DNA of 43,768 nt from an uncultured Pelagibacteraceae bacterium (lineage in GTDB: Bacteria > Pseudomonadota > Alphaproteobacteria > Pelagibacterales > Pelagibacteraceae). The position numbers and the translations under genes are program-made. The notes under the pieces were generated by a model. The model was not told where the DNA came from, searched no databases, and saw nothing but the letters and a program-made list of their open reading frames with translations. Position 1 is the first letter of the stretch. Each line of letters opens with the position of its first letter. Where the stretch lies: NCBI GenBank assembly GCA_902622805.1, contig CACNRG010000007.1, positions 1 through 43,768 on the forward strand. Direction: 5' to 3'. Positions 31,439 to 43,768 of the stretch are shown here, one piece after another.

Positions 31439-32082
31439 GAAACTTTTTTTTTAATTTTTTTTATGTTTAATATAAATGAGTCTTCACTTGTTAAACTTTT
31501 TTTTTCTTCATAATCTAAATCCCACTCTTTAATTGTCTCACTCAAAATTTTTCTTCCATTAGCTCCCATAAAAAAAATTATGTTTTTATATTTTTTAAAA
31601 TTTTCGTTAACCAAATTTAGAATTACTGGCATAGGCTTAAATGCTCTCGACATTATTGTTCCTGTTTCAATATTTTTAACTGTAAAAATATCTTTTTGAA
31701 TTATTTCTGTGTTCAATTTTAACTTTTTTGAAACTTCTCGTAAAAAAACACATTTATGGTAACTTTTTTCGTATAGATGAACTTTCATATTATTTTTCAT
31801 ATTTTTCATCACAATTGCTATAATAAGACCGGGCATTCCTCCCCCTGTTCCTAAATCTGAGGTTGTATTATTATTTAAATCAACAAAATCAATAATTTGC
31901 GCTGAATCAATTATATGACGCTCTCTTATCTCCTTTTTTCCATACATTTTTTTGCTAATTATGTTAATTTCTCTATTTTTTTGCTGTATCATGGAAATTA
32001 GGCTCTCAAGCTCATTACAAGTTTCACGTGAAACATTTAAATTGGAAATCTGAGAGTAAGAATTTAAAATTACGTTATCCAT
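31435..32082 (-). CDS. rsmG: 16S rRNA (guanine(527)-N7)-methyltransferase RsmG
   Basis: SAM-dependent methyltransferase modifying G527 of 16S rRNA. The SAM motif is SDLGTGGGMPGLIIAI in the middle of the 215-residue protein, with the family region NIISKKMYGKKEIRERHIIDSAQI before it. The N-terminal peptide NVSRET is encoded by the parS site (32020-32035), so the coding sequence and a centromere overlap. Its ATG overlaps the mnmG stop by one base. Confidence 0.95.
   Translation of the reverse strand: MDNVILNSYSQISNLNVSRETCNELESLISMIQQKNREINIISKKMYGKKEIRERHIIDSAQIIDFVDLNNNTTSDLGTGGGMPGLIIAIVMKNMKNNMKVHLYEKSYHKCVFLREVSKKLKLNTEIIQKDIFTVKNIETGTIMSRAFKPMPVILNLVNENFKKYKNIIFFMGANGRKILSETIKEWDLDYEEKKSLTSEDSFILNIKKIKKKVS
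32020..32035. other. parS centromere site (ParB-binding) inside rsmG
   Basis: The palindrome GTTTCACGTGAAAC (32021-32034) is exact to the core of the bacterial parS consensus TGTTTCACGTGAAACA; with flanks it matches 15 of 16 positions. It encodes V-S-R-E-T of RsmG on the minus strand. It lies about 0.6 kb upstream of parA and about 9.4 kb from the proposed oriC, the distance range known for chromosomal parS. I saw no second copy in the window. Confidence 0.93.
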
Positions 32083-40396: not shown

Positions 40397-41399
40397 TTAA
40401 TAGTCTTTAACTGTTTTTACTAAATAGTCCATCATACCAGGATCCGTCTCTGGTAAAACACCATGTCCTAAATTAAAGATATAAGGATGATCTTTAAATA
40501 TATCTAGATATCTTTTTGCCTCTTTTTTTAAAGTTTGTTTATCAGTCAATAAAACTTTGGGATCCATTCCTCCTTGAACTGGTATTTCTATTTCTTTTAC
40601 AATCGTTAATGGATCAACTTCATAATCAATACAAATCACATCAGGTTTTACAAAATCACAATATTTTTTATAATTTTTTATATTCCTCGGAAAACATATA
40701 ACTGGTATATTTAGAGATTGAGTAAATTTTACCAAATTTAATGTTGGATGATATACGTAGTGAGGTAAATCCTTATCTTCCAATAATCCTGCCCAGCTAT
40801 CGAATATTTGGATTACATTTGCGCCACTAGCTATTTGGTTTTTAATATGAATTTTTAAAAACTTTTCAATGATAATTAAAATTTTGTCTATTAAATCTTT
40901 ATTCTGAAAAAAATCTTTTTTTAGTTGTTTTTTTTGGAGACTGTTGGTTTATCATATAGACTAGTATTGTCCACGGAGCACCAACAAAACCGATAATGTT
41001 TTTATTTTTTAAAATAATATTATTGCTCACATTTTTTATAGCTTCATAAACTTTTTGAACTTTTTTTGTGAAGTCGATTTCATTAATTTTAGATATTTCA
41101 TTTAAATTGAATTTTCCTAATATTGGACCAAAATTCTTTTTAAATTCCACATTTTGATTTAAACCGTATGGCAACATTAATATATCTGAAAAAATAATTG
41201 CTGCATCAAAATCAAATCTTTTTAATGGTTGAATAGTAATTTCAGAAGATAAATCTGAATTTAAACATAATTTAATAAAATCTTTATTTTTAGATCTAAT
41301 TTCTCTAAACTCAGGTAAATATCTACCTGCTTGCCTCATTATCCATATAGGCTTTTTTCTAATATTCTTATTCAATATTACTTCATGTAGAGGTGTCAT
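40397..41399 (-). pseudogene. hemE: Uroporphyrinogen decarboxylase, frameshifted (probably an intact gene with a 1-base error)
   Basis: Decarboxylates uroporphyrinogen III to coproporphyrinogen III. The first part (41399 to 40899, 166 codons) has the family start RQAGRYLPEFREIR and GAPWTILVYMINQQSPKK, then goes out of frame. The second part (from the homopolymer to 40397) contains IDYEVDPLTIVKEIEIPVQGGMDP and PYIFNLGHGVLPETDP, and HemE sequence also continues in that frame between the two reading frames (QIFDSWAGLLEDKDLPHY). Total length is 1003 nt, one base more than 334 codons; removing one T from the T8 run at 40928-40935 (or T7 at 40916-40922) restores a 333-residue HemE of normal size. 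Because the gene is needed for haem and its neighbours are intact, a sequencing or assembly indel is the likeliest cause; true decay or slippage cannot be excluded. Confidence 0.85.
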
Positions 41400-41440
41400 A
41401 TTAAAATAGTATATATTATTATTGTATTAGTATTATAGAG

Positions 41441-41449
41441 TGTGAATAA
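41441..41449 (-). promoter_or_regulatory. DnaA box
   Basis: TGTGAATAA on the plus strand is TTATTCACA on the minus strand, an exact match to the DnaA consensus TTATNCACA, within the AT-rich hemE-side gap. Near-matches (8 of 9) lie at 41579-41587 in the gap and at 41339-41347 inside hemE. One exact box alone is weak evidence, but the location strengthens it. Confidence 0.6.
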
Positions 41450-41609
41450 CGATAATTATTTTTTATTAACATTATATCGACAGTTTAATAACATTATTGA
41501 ACTAATAATATTGTTTAAAATGTAGCTTTTTAGTATTTTACTATTTTTAATGTATTATTTTATTAACTAATTTATTAATGTTAATAAAATCCTCATTTTA
41601 CAATAATAA

Positions 41610-41624
41610 TTAACCAATATTTAA
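41610..41624. promoter_or_regulatory. CtrA-like binding site
   Basis: TTAACCAATATTTAA fits the alphaproteobacterial CtrA consensus TTAA-N7-TTAA exactly. In Caulobacter CtrA binds such sites in oriC and represses initiation. The surrounding 86% A+T composition makes a chance match fairly likely. Confidence 0.35.
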
Positions 41625-41671
41625 ATTGAGTAATTTTATTAAAATAATACAAATTTACTAACTATTTATTC

Positions 41672-42499
41672 ATGAGTAATACATATCAAATTTATTTGAT
41701 TTCAGATTCTACAGGTGAAACTTTAGATAGAATTTTTTTAGCTTTAAAGGCTCAATTTAAAAACATCGAATATAAGGTTCATTCTTACTCGTTTACGAGA
41801 ACAGAAAATCAAATCTTAAAAATACTAGAAGATGCTAAAAGAAATGAACACGCAGTAATTTTATATACAATTGTTGATAACAGTTTAGCAAAATATTTAG
41901 CTAATATGAGCGATGAAAAAAACATTCCTTGTTTCGGAGTGCTAGGAAACTTAATTTTAAACTTTTCAAAAATTCTCAACCAGAAAGCTTCCCACGAACC
42001 AAGCGGACAACATGTTTTGAATGATGAGTATTATGAAAGAATAGAGGCTATTCAATTTACAATGAATCATGATGATGGAAAATCAACAAAAGACATAGAA
42101 AAGTCGGATATAATACTTGTTGGAGTTAGCAGAACAAGTAAAACACCAACTTCAATCTATTTAGCTAATAGAGGGTTTAAAACTTCAAACATACCATTAA
42201 TAAATGAAAATTCTTTACCTAAAAAATTAAAAGATAATCCACAAATTACATGTGTCATTGGTTTAACCACCGAACCAGAAAGATTGGTAGAAATAAGAAA
42301 AAATAGAATGAATTCTTTAAAGGAAACTGAAAATAAAAATTATACAAACATTGAAAATATCACAAAAGAAATTATTGATGCAAAAAGAACTTTTCAGAAA
42401 TATAGATGGCCAGTTATTGATATTACAAGAAAATCAGTTGAAGAAGCAGCAGCTTCAATAATAAAAATACACGAAATATATCTTAATAATGTTAAATAA
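41672..42499 (+). CDS. PPSR-type kinase/pyrophosphorylase (DUF299), dikinase regulator
   Basis: A 275-residue bifunctional Ser/Thr kinase and phosphotransferase family that switches pyruvate-phosphate or phosphoenolpyruvate dikinases off and on. The start reads IYLISDSTGETLDRIFLALKAQF, and the nucleotide-binding P-loop is GVSRTSKTP at 151-159 followed by TSIYLANRGFKTSNIPLI. The C-terminal region PVIDITRKSVEEAAASI is typical. In alphaproteobacteria this gene (RP001 in Rickettsia) lies right of oriC. Its target dikinase is not in the window. It overlaps maf by 11 nt. Confidence 0.92.
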   Translation: MSNTYQIYLISDSTGETLDRIFLALKAQFKNIEYKVHSYSFTRTENQILKILEDAKRNEHAVILYTIVDNSLAKYLANMSDEKNIPCFGVLGNLILNFSKILNQKASHEPSGQHVLNDEYYERIEAIQFTMNHDDGKSTKDIEKSDIILVGVSRTSKTPTSIYLANRGFKTSNIPLINENSLPKKLKDNPQITCVIGLTTEPERLVEIRKNRMNSLKETENKNYTNIENITKEIIDAKRTFQKYRWPVIDITRKSVEEAAASIIKIHEIYLNNVK

Positions 42500-43076
42500 A
42501 ATTATACTAGCCTCAAAAAGTGAAGTTAGAAAAGAAATACTTGATAAAAACGATATTCCCAATGAAGCCGAACCATCAAACGTTGATGAAGATATAGTTA
42601 AAGAAAGTTTACTGAAAGAAAAAGCAACTCCAGATATTATTTCTAAAAATTTAGCAGAATTAAAGGCAAACAAGGTAAGTCTTAAAAAAAGCGGTGAAAT
42701 TGTTTTAGGAGCAGATAGTGTAATTGATTTAAATGGTGAATTAATATCCAAACCTGAAAATAGAGAGGAAGCTTTTAAAATTCTAAAAAAATTAAATGGA
42801 AAAAAACATTGTTTAGTTAGTTCAGTTTGTATTTCAAAGAATGGTTCTATGATTTGGAATTATACTGATAAAGCGACATTAACTATGAAAAATTTTAGTG
42901 ATGATGAGTTGAAATCTTATTTGTCTAAAATAACAGATAAAGCTTTATATGCTTATAATGTTTATCAAATTGAAGGCGCTGGAAGAGAATTATTTTCAGA
43001 TATAAAAGGAGATGAAAATACAATAATGGGGTTACCAATAAAACAAATTAAAGAGTACTTAAAGAAAATTAAATGA
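42489..43076 (+). CDS. Maf-family nucleotide pyrophosphatase
   Basis: A 195-residue Maf/YhdE-type nucleoside triphosphate pyrophosphatase that hydrolyses modified or canonical NTPs. The N-terminal motif is LASKSEVRKEIL in place of the more usual LASxSPRR, VLGADSVIDLNG holds the catalytic aspartate, and SKPENREEAFKILKKLNGKKH and the YNVYQIEGAGR segment follow. Exact substrate is not assignable. It overlaps the upstream gene by 11 nt and aroE by ATGA (43073-43076), matching the alphaproteobacterial ppsR-maf-aroE order. Confidence 0.9.
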   Translation: MLNKIILASKSEVRKEILDKNDIPNEAEPSNVDEDIVKESLLKEKATPDIISKNLAELKANKVSLKKSGEIVLGADSVIDLNGELISKPENREEAFKILKKLNGKKHCLVSSVCISKNGSMIWNYTDKATLTMKNFSDDELKSYLSKITDKALYAYNVYQIEGAGRELFSDIKGDENTIMGLPIKQIKEYLKKIK

Positions 43077-43768
43077 ATAAATATTTAGTAATTGGAAATC
43101 CCATTGAACACTCTTTGTCACCAAAATTACATAATTTTTGGATCAAAGCTAATAACCTTGATGCAATATATGAAAAAAAAAAACTCAATGAAAATGAGCT
43201 TACAGACCTGATGTTAAAAGTTAAAAAAAAAGATATTCATGGAATTAATGTTACTGTTCCTTTTAAAAAAGTTGTAATCCCTTATCTTGATCAATTAACC
43301 TTTGAGTCTGAAAGCACCCAATCTGTTAACACGATTTATTTAGAGAATAATAAATTAATTGGTCACAATACTGATATTGAGGGATTTGAAAGGAGTATTC
43401 AGGATTTAAAATTAGAGGTGACGAAAAAAAAAATTTTAATATTAGGAGCAGGTGGAGTAGTACCATCGATAATTTTCGCTTTGAATAAAATGAAAGTATC
43501 TGAAGTCATAGTAAGCAATAGAACTAAAAGTAAAGCAGAGAGTTTGAAAAATACATTTGAAAATATAAAAATAGTTGAATGGGGAGAAATTCCAGAATTT
43601 AATATGGTCATCAATGCAACAAGTATTGGTCTTAAAAATGATGATAAAATAGACTTAGATTTTTCTAAGGTAGGTAAAAATAAATTCTTTTACGATGTAA
43701 TTTATAAACCAAACGAAACAAATTTTTTAAAAGTTGGTAAAAAATTAGGTAATAAAACCGAAAACGGT
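43073..43768 (+). CDS. aroE: Shikimate dehydrogenase, 5' part (cut by window edge)
   Basis: The first 232 codons of shikimate 5-dehydrogenase, an NADPH enzyme of aromatic amino-acid synthesis, run in frame to the last base of the window. The substrate-binding start is YLVIGNPIEHSLSPKLHNFW, the catalytic lysine is in GINVTVPFKK, GHNTDIEGF follows, and the NADP-binding loop is ILILGAGGVVPSIIFAL. INATSIGL and the YDVIYKPNETNFL segment are also typical. About 40-50 residues are missing at the C-terminus. Its ATG overlaps the maf TGA by 4 nt. Confidence 0.95.
   Translation, partial: MNKYLVIGNPIEHSLSPKLHNFWIKANNLDAIYEKKKLNENELTDLMLKVKKKDIHGINVTVPFKKVVIPYLDQLTFESESTQSVNTIYLENNKLIGHNTDIEGFERSIQDLKLEVTKKKILILGAGGVVPSIIFALNKMKVSEVIVSNRTKSKAESLKNTFENIKIVEWGEIPEFNMVINATSIGLKNDDKIDLDFSKVGKNKFFYDVIYKPNETNFLKVGKKLGNKTENG

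Follow-up and report, generated by a model that had tools for sequence, protein, structure and literature searches.

A predicted hemE-linked chromosomal replication origin of reduced length in SAR11 bacteria

The replication origin of Caulobacter lies between hemE and a COG1806 gene, and the same location is stated for Rickettsia in the passages of PMC1914354 that deal with origin position. Those passages also describe the Wolbachia and Ehrlichia origins (hemE|COG1253), in which the origin stays beside one old flank and the other flank changes. A layout consisting of a DnaA box beside DnaA-trios (BUS) has been described for Bacillus subtilis, and 1755 of 2070 bacterial origins are predicted to have it, according to portions of PMC8287927 and PMC6669920; the rule given in the former calls for at least three NAN triplets no more than 16 nt from a DnaA box that has two mismatches or fewer. 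As for cell-cycle signals, excerpts of PMC3973325 report a CcrM homologue in SAR11 and several GANTC motifs in the Caulobacter origin, a section of PMC9516812 reports an origin-to-terminus gradient of GANTC methylation in Pelagibacter, and a statement in PMC2877005 has it that the ctrA gene was not found in Pelagibacter. No published SAR11 oriC was recognised among the top-ranked literature matches, and the relevant portions of PMC2704228, PMC2031905 and PMC8116508 contain nothing on one; DoriC-type predictions may already include the location described here.

The window analysed here, 43,768 nucleotides long, is contig C7 of a draft SAR11 genome (942,367 bases, 33 contigs, 82% complete) whose nearest named matches are uncultured Pelagibacteraceae. 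An earlier note had proposed that the spacer between its hemE and PPSR genes is a chromosomal origin, an interpretation that is supported by the position of the spacer, its conserved DnaA boxes and the symmetry of parS and dnaA about it. From sequence comparison we consider it very probable that this spacer is the oriC of the SAR11 bacterium, a homologue, reduced to about 270 bp, of the origin that Caulobacter and Rickettsia have beside hemE.

The hemE-PPSR spacer and its counterparts

The spacer comprises 272 bp, from the hemE start codon (41399, minus strand) to the PPSR start codon (41672, plus strand), contains no ORF of at least 80 aa, and has a computed G+C of 0.14, in agreement with the eye count of about 14% and with the coordinates and gene orientation reported before (Table 1). 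Searches for other elements gave no Rfam match at gathering thresholds in the whole window, no terminator in 41380-41700, and no reported direct repeats of at least 9 nt in the gap. Family models recovered hemE, hemH, a hemG-type flavodoxin, rho, mnmE, mnmG, PPSR and maf, and also the rsmG, parA and parB types, with rsmG slightly under its curated cut-off; the assignment of the last ORF (43073-43768) as AroE is by eye only. As described, genes between 29799 and 41399 run leftward and those between 41672 and the window end rightward, apart from short opposite-strand ORFs that overlap them. Because the rightward run in a complete relative (G012) is only about 3.4 kb, gene orientation is weak evidence alone, and it was discarded as proof of an origin.

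Table 1. Positions of the predicted origin and of associated features in the window
Feature	Position	Strand	Remarks
Predicted chromosomal replication origin (oriC)	41400..41671		between divergent hemE and PPSR
hemE (frameshifted), left flank	40397..41399	-	ORF list and family models
PPSR / Kinase-PPPase (DUF299, COG1806), right flank	41672..42499	+	NF003742, E 8e-92
Predicted DNA-unwinding stretch, hemE side	41400..41439		nearest-neighbour sum, rank 20 of 43729 among the window's least stable 40-mers
Predicted DnaA-trio stretch TTG-TAT-TAG-TAT-TAT	41422..41436	+	4 nt from box 1
DnaA box 1, exact TTATTCACA	41441..41449	-	anchor of the predicted unwinding module
DnaA box-like site 2, TTATTAACA (1 mismatch)	41463..41471	+	98 sites in bin, 2 exact, over 167 f1 gaps
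Degenerate box-like site ATATCGACA (2 mismatches)	41474..41482	+	88 sites with at most 1 mismatch in bin, 0 exact, over 167 f1 gaps; weak in the window
DnaA box-like site 3, TGTTAATAA on the plus strand (1 mismatch)	41579..41587	-	111 sites in bin, 7 exact, over 167 f1 gaps
parS-type site AGTTTCACGTGAAACA (1 mismatch)	32020..32035		9.4 kb from the gap; consensus quoted from general knowledge

The window's hemE is interrupted by a frameshift at 40783-40942 that leaves two ORFs of 128 and 166 aa. Alignments to two relatives (L032 and L033) place a one-base gap near the frameshift, beside a run of T. A homopolymer error of the draft assembly is the likely cause, and a real lesion is possible.

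The same arrangement recurs in SAR11 relatives. A first set of 140 loci (hemE starts not yet snapped to ATG) showed hemE-gap-PPSR in 139, with gaps of 261-292 bp, the remaining locus (L043) having no hemE match. A wider set of 212 loci yielded a gap in 208, the four others being L043 and three displaced-hemE loci of genus g6. Three arrangements were found, namely hemE|PPSR (184 loci, spacer 261-289 bp), hemE|maf with PPSR lost (21 loci, 271-281 bp), and rho|PPSR with hemE gone from the site (3 loci, 348-353 bp). Some loci represent the same genome reached by two routes, and merging of identical gaps left 191 distinct ones (167, 21 and 3, respectively), from which a thinned set of 42 was taken whose left blocks (the hemE-side DnaA block) are under 75% alike. 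Family f1 accounts for the 167 distinct gaps. The Kinase-PPPase family occurs in 275 of 347 genomes of the order and in 8 of 12 genera, and the window's PPSR protein as query matched one genus of five, its own.

Both flank replacements were observed in defined lineages. The sister family f2 (L251-L271) appears to be without PPSR, its place beside the predicted origin being taken by maf; the window's PPSR protein gave no match in any of the 48 f2 genomes searched, and the identity of the Maf-type neighbour was assigned by eye, its protein matching the place of maf in L043. In genus g6 (G121, G124, G367; L248-L250, L280-L282), hemE is no longer at the predicted origin, rho (by eye) now borders the spacer, and a divergent hemE copy, under the family cut-off, lies elsewhere.

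Other alphaproteobacteria were represented by the best 30 of 137 genomes with a PPSR match, from 193 searched. A divergent hemE adjoins PPSR in 29 of the 30; the sequence of the remaining locus has only about 366 bases ahead of PPSR. The 29 gaps, with hemE starts estimated from alignment, measure 310-1076 bp (median 424), and the description of the SAR11 spacer as very small compared with Caulobacter is right in kind, with these gaps rather than Caulobacter by name as the yardstick. The SAR11 spacer shares with the Caulobacter/Rickettsia origin its location between the same two divergent flanks, hemE and COG1806 (PPSR), its DnaA boxes, and an A+T content above that of the genome (gap G+C 0.14-0.15 versus 0.22-0.34 in 20-kb bins of G012). 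It differs in its shorter length in the two hemE-bordered arrangements (rho|PPSR spacers fall within the range of the 29 others), in its lack of GANTC (0 of 40 thinned f1 and f2 gaps, versus 27 of the 29 others holding one) and in the swapped flanks of two SAR11 lineages. As in Wolbachia and Ehrlichia (passages of PMC1914354), the predicted origin stays beside one old flank; unlike in these, either flank has been lost in SAR11, in different lineages. Judged by its sequence, the SAR11 gap is a short member of the known hemE-linked class of alphaproteobacterial origins.

DnaA boxes, trios and cell-cycle motifs

The exact DnaA box reported in the earlier note (box 1) is the window's only exact TTATNCACA. 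The gap also has the one-mismatch sites 2 and 3, which together form a perfect 14-nt inverted pair. Across the whole window, boxes with at most one mismatch show no excess (63 versus 70.8 expected). The window's own gap contains three, against a shuffle mean of 0.75, and three or more occurred in 37 of 1000 shuffles, while an exact box occurred in 3 of 500. Since the box count of this gap alone is only modestly unusual, the case must rest on relatives.

The alignment of related gaps that had been suggested as a check bears out the conservation of box 1. Over the 167 distinct f1 gaps, its 6-nt bin contains 136 minus-strand boxes that deviate at one position or none (104 exact). By information per column, no other set of ten columns reaches that of box 1, and only the final two bases ahead of the PPSR start are higher. 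Further plus-strand sites with at most one mismatch number 48 at about 41484 and 117 near 41652 over these gaps, the latter site being degenerate in the window itself. Every one of the 191 distinct gaps holds at least one box with at most one mismatch, with a mean of 4.34 per gap versus 0.83 in dinucleotide shuffles (3.8 versus 0.8 for the 42 thinned gaps). Among the 173 intergenic regions of G012 of at least 100 bp and without N, the gap ranks first with 4 boxes, the next having 3. The boxes of the SAR11 gap are in this way enriched over chance and over other intergenic regions, as expected of an alphaproteobacterial hemE-linked oriC. Outside SAR11, a scan for minus-strand boxes with no more than one mismatch found none in the stretch covered for 15 of the 29 alphaproteobacterial gaps.

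To the left of box 1 lies a stretch resembling TAGTTGTA in f1 or TAGTAGTAGTAG in f2, followed by TGTG or TGTT, in f2 often with CC in between. Of 404 pairs of G residues in this stretch, 178 lie a multiple of three apart (expected fraction 0.304), a periodicity equalled in 0 of 2000 shuffles and at background or below (0.17-0.32) at five control offsets. Over the 42 thinned gaps, where this periodicity exceeds chance, the TAG-trio score averages 10.3 versus 7.9 in shuffles (0 of 200 as high), and for the window alone it is marginal (59 of 1000 shuffles as high). In the window, the arrangement TAT-TAG-TAT-TAT, 4 nt, TGTGAATAA conforms to the box-plus-trio rule of BUS, with the qualification that NAN triplets come cheaply in A+T-rich DNA. 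Many f2 gaps have a tandem pair of boxes, on the second of which both the box anchoring and the profiled block fall; the trio test re-anchors the f2 rows. The least stable 40-mer of the gap starts within the first 30 nt in 16 of the 42 thinned gaps and elsewhere in 26.

By its sequence, the left block consists of a T(A/T)G triplet repeat followed by a DnaA box, corresponding to the DnaA-box/DnaA-trio 'basal unwinding' layout. It resembles the B. subtilis BUS in having a DnaA box beside at least three NAN triplets (sections of PMC8287927 and PMC6669920). In comparison with that system, most f1 gaps have one strong box beside the trios, and the trios are degenerate (TAT besides TAG and TTG). The strand and side of the SAR11 module presumably also agree with the B. 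subtilis layout. Some other alphaproteobacterial gaps display a similar TAGTTGTTG..CC-TGTGGATAA layout, in which, as in SAR11, the T(A/T)G stretch, the CC and TGTGGATAA lie towards hemE. The strict trio-plus-box pattern was found in only one of the 30 loci, the one with TTGTAGTTGTTGTTGATCCC-TGTGGATAA. Common ancestry of the left block beyond SAR11 is a suggestion.

Profiles of the left block, built without the target's own row and without rows at least 85% identical to the target, place the gap first in G012 (1.34 Mb; 40.6 bits, next 22.1), in 400 kb of a second relative, G126 (36.2 bits, next 22.3), and in the window, where it scores 43.4 bits and the next place 9.9; common descent adds to these scores. 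An f2 profile likewise finds the f2 gap in 400 kb of the f2 genome G073 (34.0 bits, next 18.2). The f2 profile does not return the f1 gap as top match in G126 or in the window, and the f1 profile fails in the same way on the f2 gap.

GANTC, the CcrM methylation site, is present in only 4 of the 191 distinct SAR11 gaps and in none of the 42 thinned gaps (shuffles 6.3 +/- 2.4, 0 of 200 as low), counts that are weakened by kinship among the gaps. The depletion is seen in f1 (0 versus 4.4 in shuffles, 1 of 100 as low), and f2 alone shows nothing (0 versus 1.5, 18 of 100 as low). Other intergenic regions of G012 are not depleted, neither all 173 (80 versus 70.8 expected) nor the 37 with less than 20% G+C (14 versus 8.5), and the 29 gaps of other alphaproteobacteria are enriched (86 versus 56.1 +/- 7.0, with 27 holding at least one). 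CtrA sites (TTAA-N7-TTAA) are in excess in the thinned f1 gaps (16 versus 8.0 +/- 2.5, 0 of 100 as high), number 0 versus 0.7 in the thinned f2 gaps and 4 versus 0.6 in the other alphaproteobacteria, and with one mismatch allowed and both strands counted show no excess (6.05 versus 5.95). These counts conflict, and CtrA sites were set aside as evidence.

Chromosomal position and alternative readings

Chromosome-scale evidence was sought in GC skew, as the earlier note had recommended, and in the positions of parS and dnaA, tests beyond its own that both point to the gap. Skew was computed for the whole of G012 (5000 N) and for 400 kb of G126 and G073 (8000 N each). In G012, with the gap at 1,261,949-1,262,209 and the dnaA match at 1,198,936, the cumulative minimum falls at 1,290,841, which is 29 kb away from the gap and 92 kb away from dnaA; the maximum falls at 615,774. 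The trough, which includes the gap, runs flat between about 1.22 and 1.32 Mb. In G126, the gap lies near 335.45-335.74 kb, about 64 kb from dnaA, and the minimum, at 307,638, is displaced from it by 28 kb in the PPSR direction. The f2 genome G073 has its gap at 424 kb, with the minimum (385 kb) on one side of it and the best changepoint (456 kb) on the other. Block shuffles gave a changepoint as strong in 3 of 500 cases for G012, 9 of 500 for G126 and 30 of 500 for G073. Gene-level models for G012, which treat origin and terminus alike, place the gap 1.3 log units under the best position by GC3 (dnaA 5.3 under) and 0.7 by AT3 (dnaA about 5), the AT3 skew peaking elsewhere. Gene-strand splits provide little discrimination (best at 1.2325 and 1.2375 Mb, 0.6461 versus 0.6454 at 1.2625 Mb). 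The skew is compatible with an origin at the gap and is not decisive; as a pinpoint it was dropped, the trough being broad, and it is retained as weak evidence.

Sites of parS type were searched with up to two mismatches, using a consensus quoted from general knowledge, in 11 single-contig genomes and in the window's own draft. All matches with at most one mismatch are near the gap, the 11 single-contig genomes having 12 such sites at 6.9-19.7 kb and the draft one, the site in the window at 9.4 kb. With two mismatches, matches at other places turned up in 6 of the 12 genomes, and a reversed-pattern control with at most two mismatches gave none in 9 of 12 and 7 sites per strand in the other three. 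In all 11 single-contig genomes, dnaA is 60.8-73.1 kb distant from the gap. Both change sides by genus. The seven g1 genomes, which do not count as independent cases, have parS and dnaA on the hemE side, g8 has dnaA there and parS on the PPSR side, and g6 and g7 have both on the PPSR side. Genes that swap sides at a nearly constant distance are the mark of inversions centred on an origin. The distances here are 61-64 kb on one side and 71-73 kb on the other for dnaA, and 7-10 and 17-20 kb for parS, giving a mirror centre, calculated by hand, that is offset from the gap by about 5 kb and coincides neither with the skew minimum nor with dnaA. The chromosome is roughly mirror-symmetric about the gap locus.

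These positions bear on two other placements of the origin. The minima of G012 and G126, each displaced by 28-29 kb towards PPSR, would suit a true origin at the cumulative skew minimum, about 28 kb from the gap, which we consider very improbable given that the G012 trough is flat, that f2 points to both sides, that the mirror positions of dnaA and parS centre far closer to the gap, and that none of the G012 intergenic regions scanned equals the box count of the gap. An origin adjoining dnaA, the general rule in many phyla, has in our view next to no probability, as dnaA switches sides at a distance from the gap in all 11 single-contig genomes, both gene-level models disfavour it by about 5 log units, and the cumulative skew in G012 stands at -2494 at 1.2 Mb, compared with a minimum of -3253 and a maximum of 9003.

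A third reading keeps to the gap and takes it to be solely the bidirectional promoter of hemE and PPSR, with the boxes and triplets as promoter elements or DnaA-regulated operators and the origin elsewhere. The gap is common to two divergent genes, and some of its conservation must be promoter because both genes need promoters there; promoter-like pairs number 8, versus 4.9 +/- 2.2 in shuffles, and one of them, on the minus strand, overlaps box 1. However, spacer length and the left DnaA-type block survive replacement of PPSR by maf or of hemE by rho, so that the promoter of either flanking gene is a hard reading, the triplet periodicity of G is no promoter feature known to us, the gap surpasses all other G012 intergenic regions compared in DnaA boxes, and parS and dnaA are roughly symmetric about it. 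A promoter with no origin function therefore appears improbable.

Predicted initiation and its meaning for SAR11

If the gap is the oriC, DnaA would bind box 1, aided by the sites at 41463, about 41474 and 41579, and would then polymerise along the T(A/T)G-type trios on the plus strand towards hemE. The A+T-rich tract at the hemE edge of the gap would open, allowing helicase loading and the departure of two outgoing forks. DnaA binding, unwinding and initiation at the gap are predicted here from the order of the motifs. In a tentative and rather doubtful extension of this scheme, SAR11 may have trimmed the alphaproteobacterial origin to an unwinding module and a few weak boxes and removed the methylation input, with GANTC selected against despite the retained CcrM; with ctrA absent, neither of the classical alphaproteobacterial cell-cycle signals might then still act at the origin to gate initiation.

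SAR11 bacteria are among the most abundant cells in the sea. Sequencing-based growth inference, through peak-to-trough coverage or methylation gradients, needs the position of the origin, and placement by GC skew in weakly skewed SAR11 genomes could err by tens of kb. One Pelagibacter growth-inference study set the origin with a GC-skew script, as described in a section of PMC9516812. The hemE-side DnaA block would provide a sequence marker for the origin that is usable even in draft genomes, and the shortness of the spacer together with its avoidance of GANTC offers a testable statement on the control of initiation in a streamlined alphaproteobacterium without ctrA.
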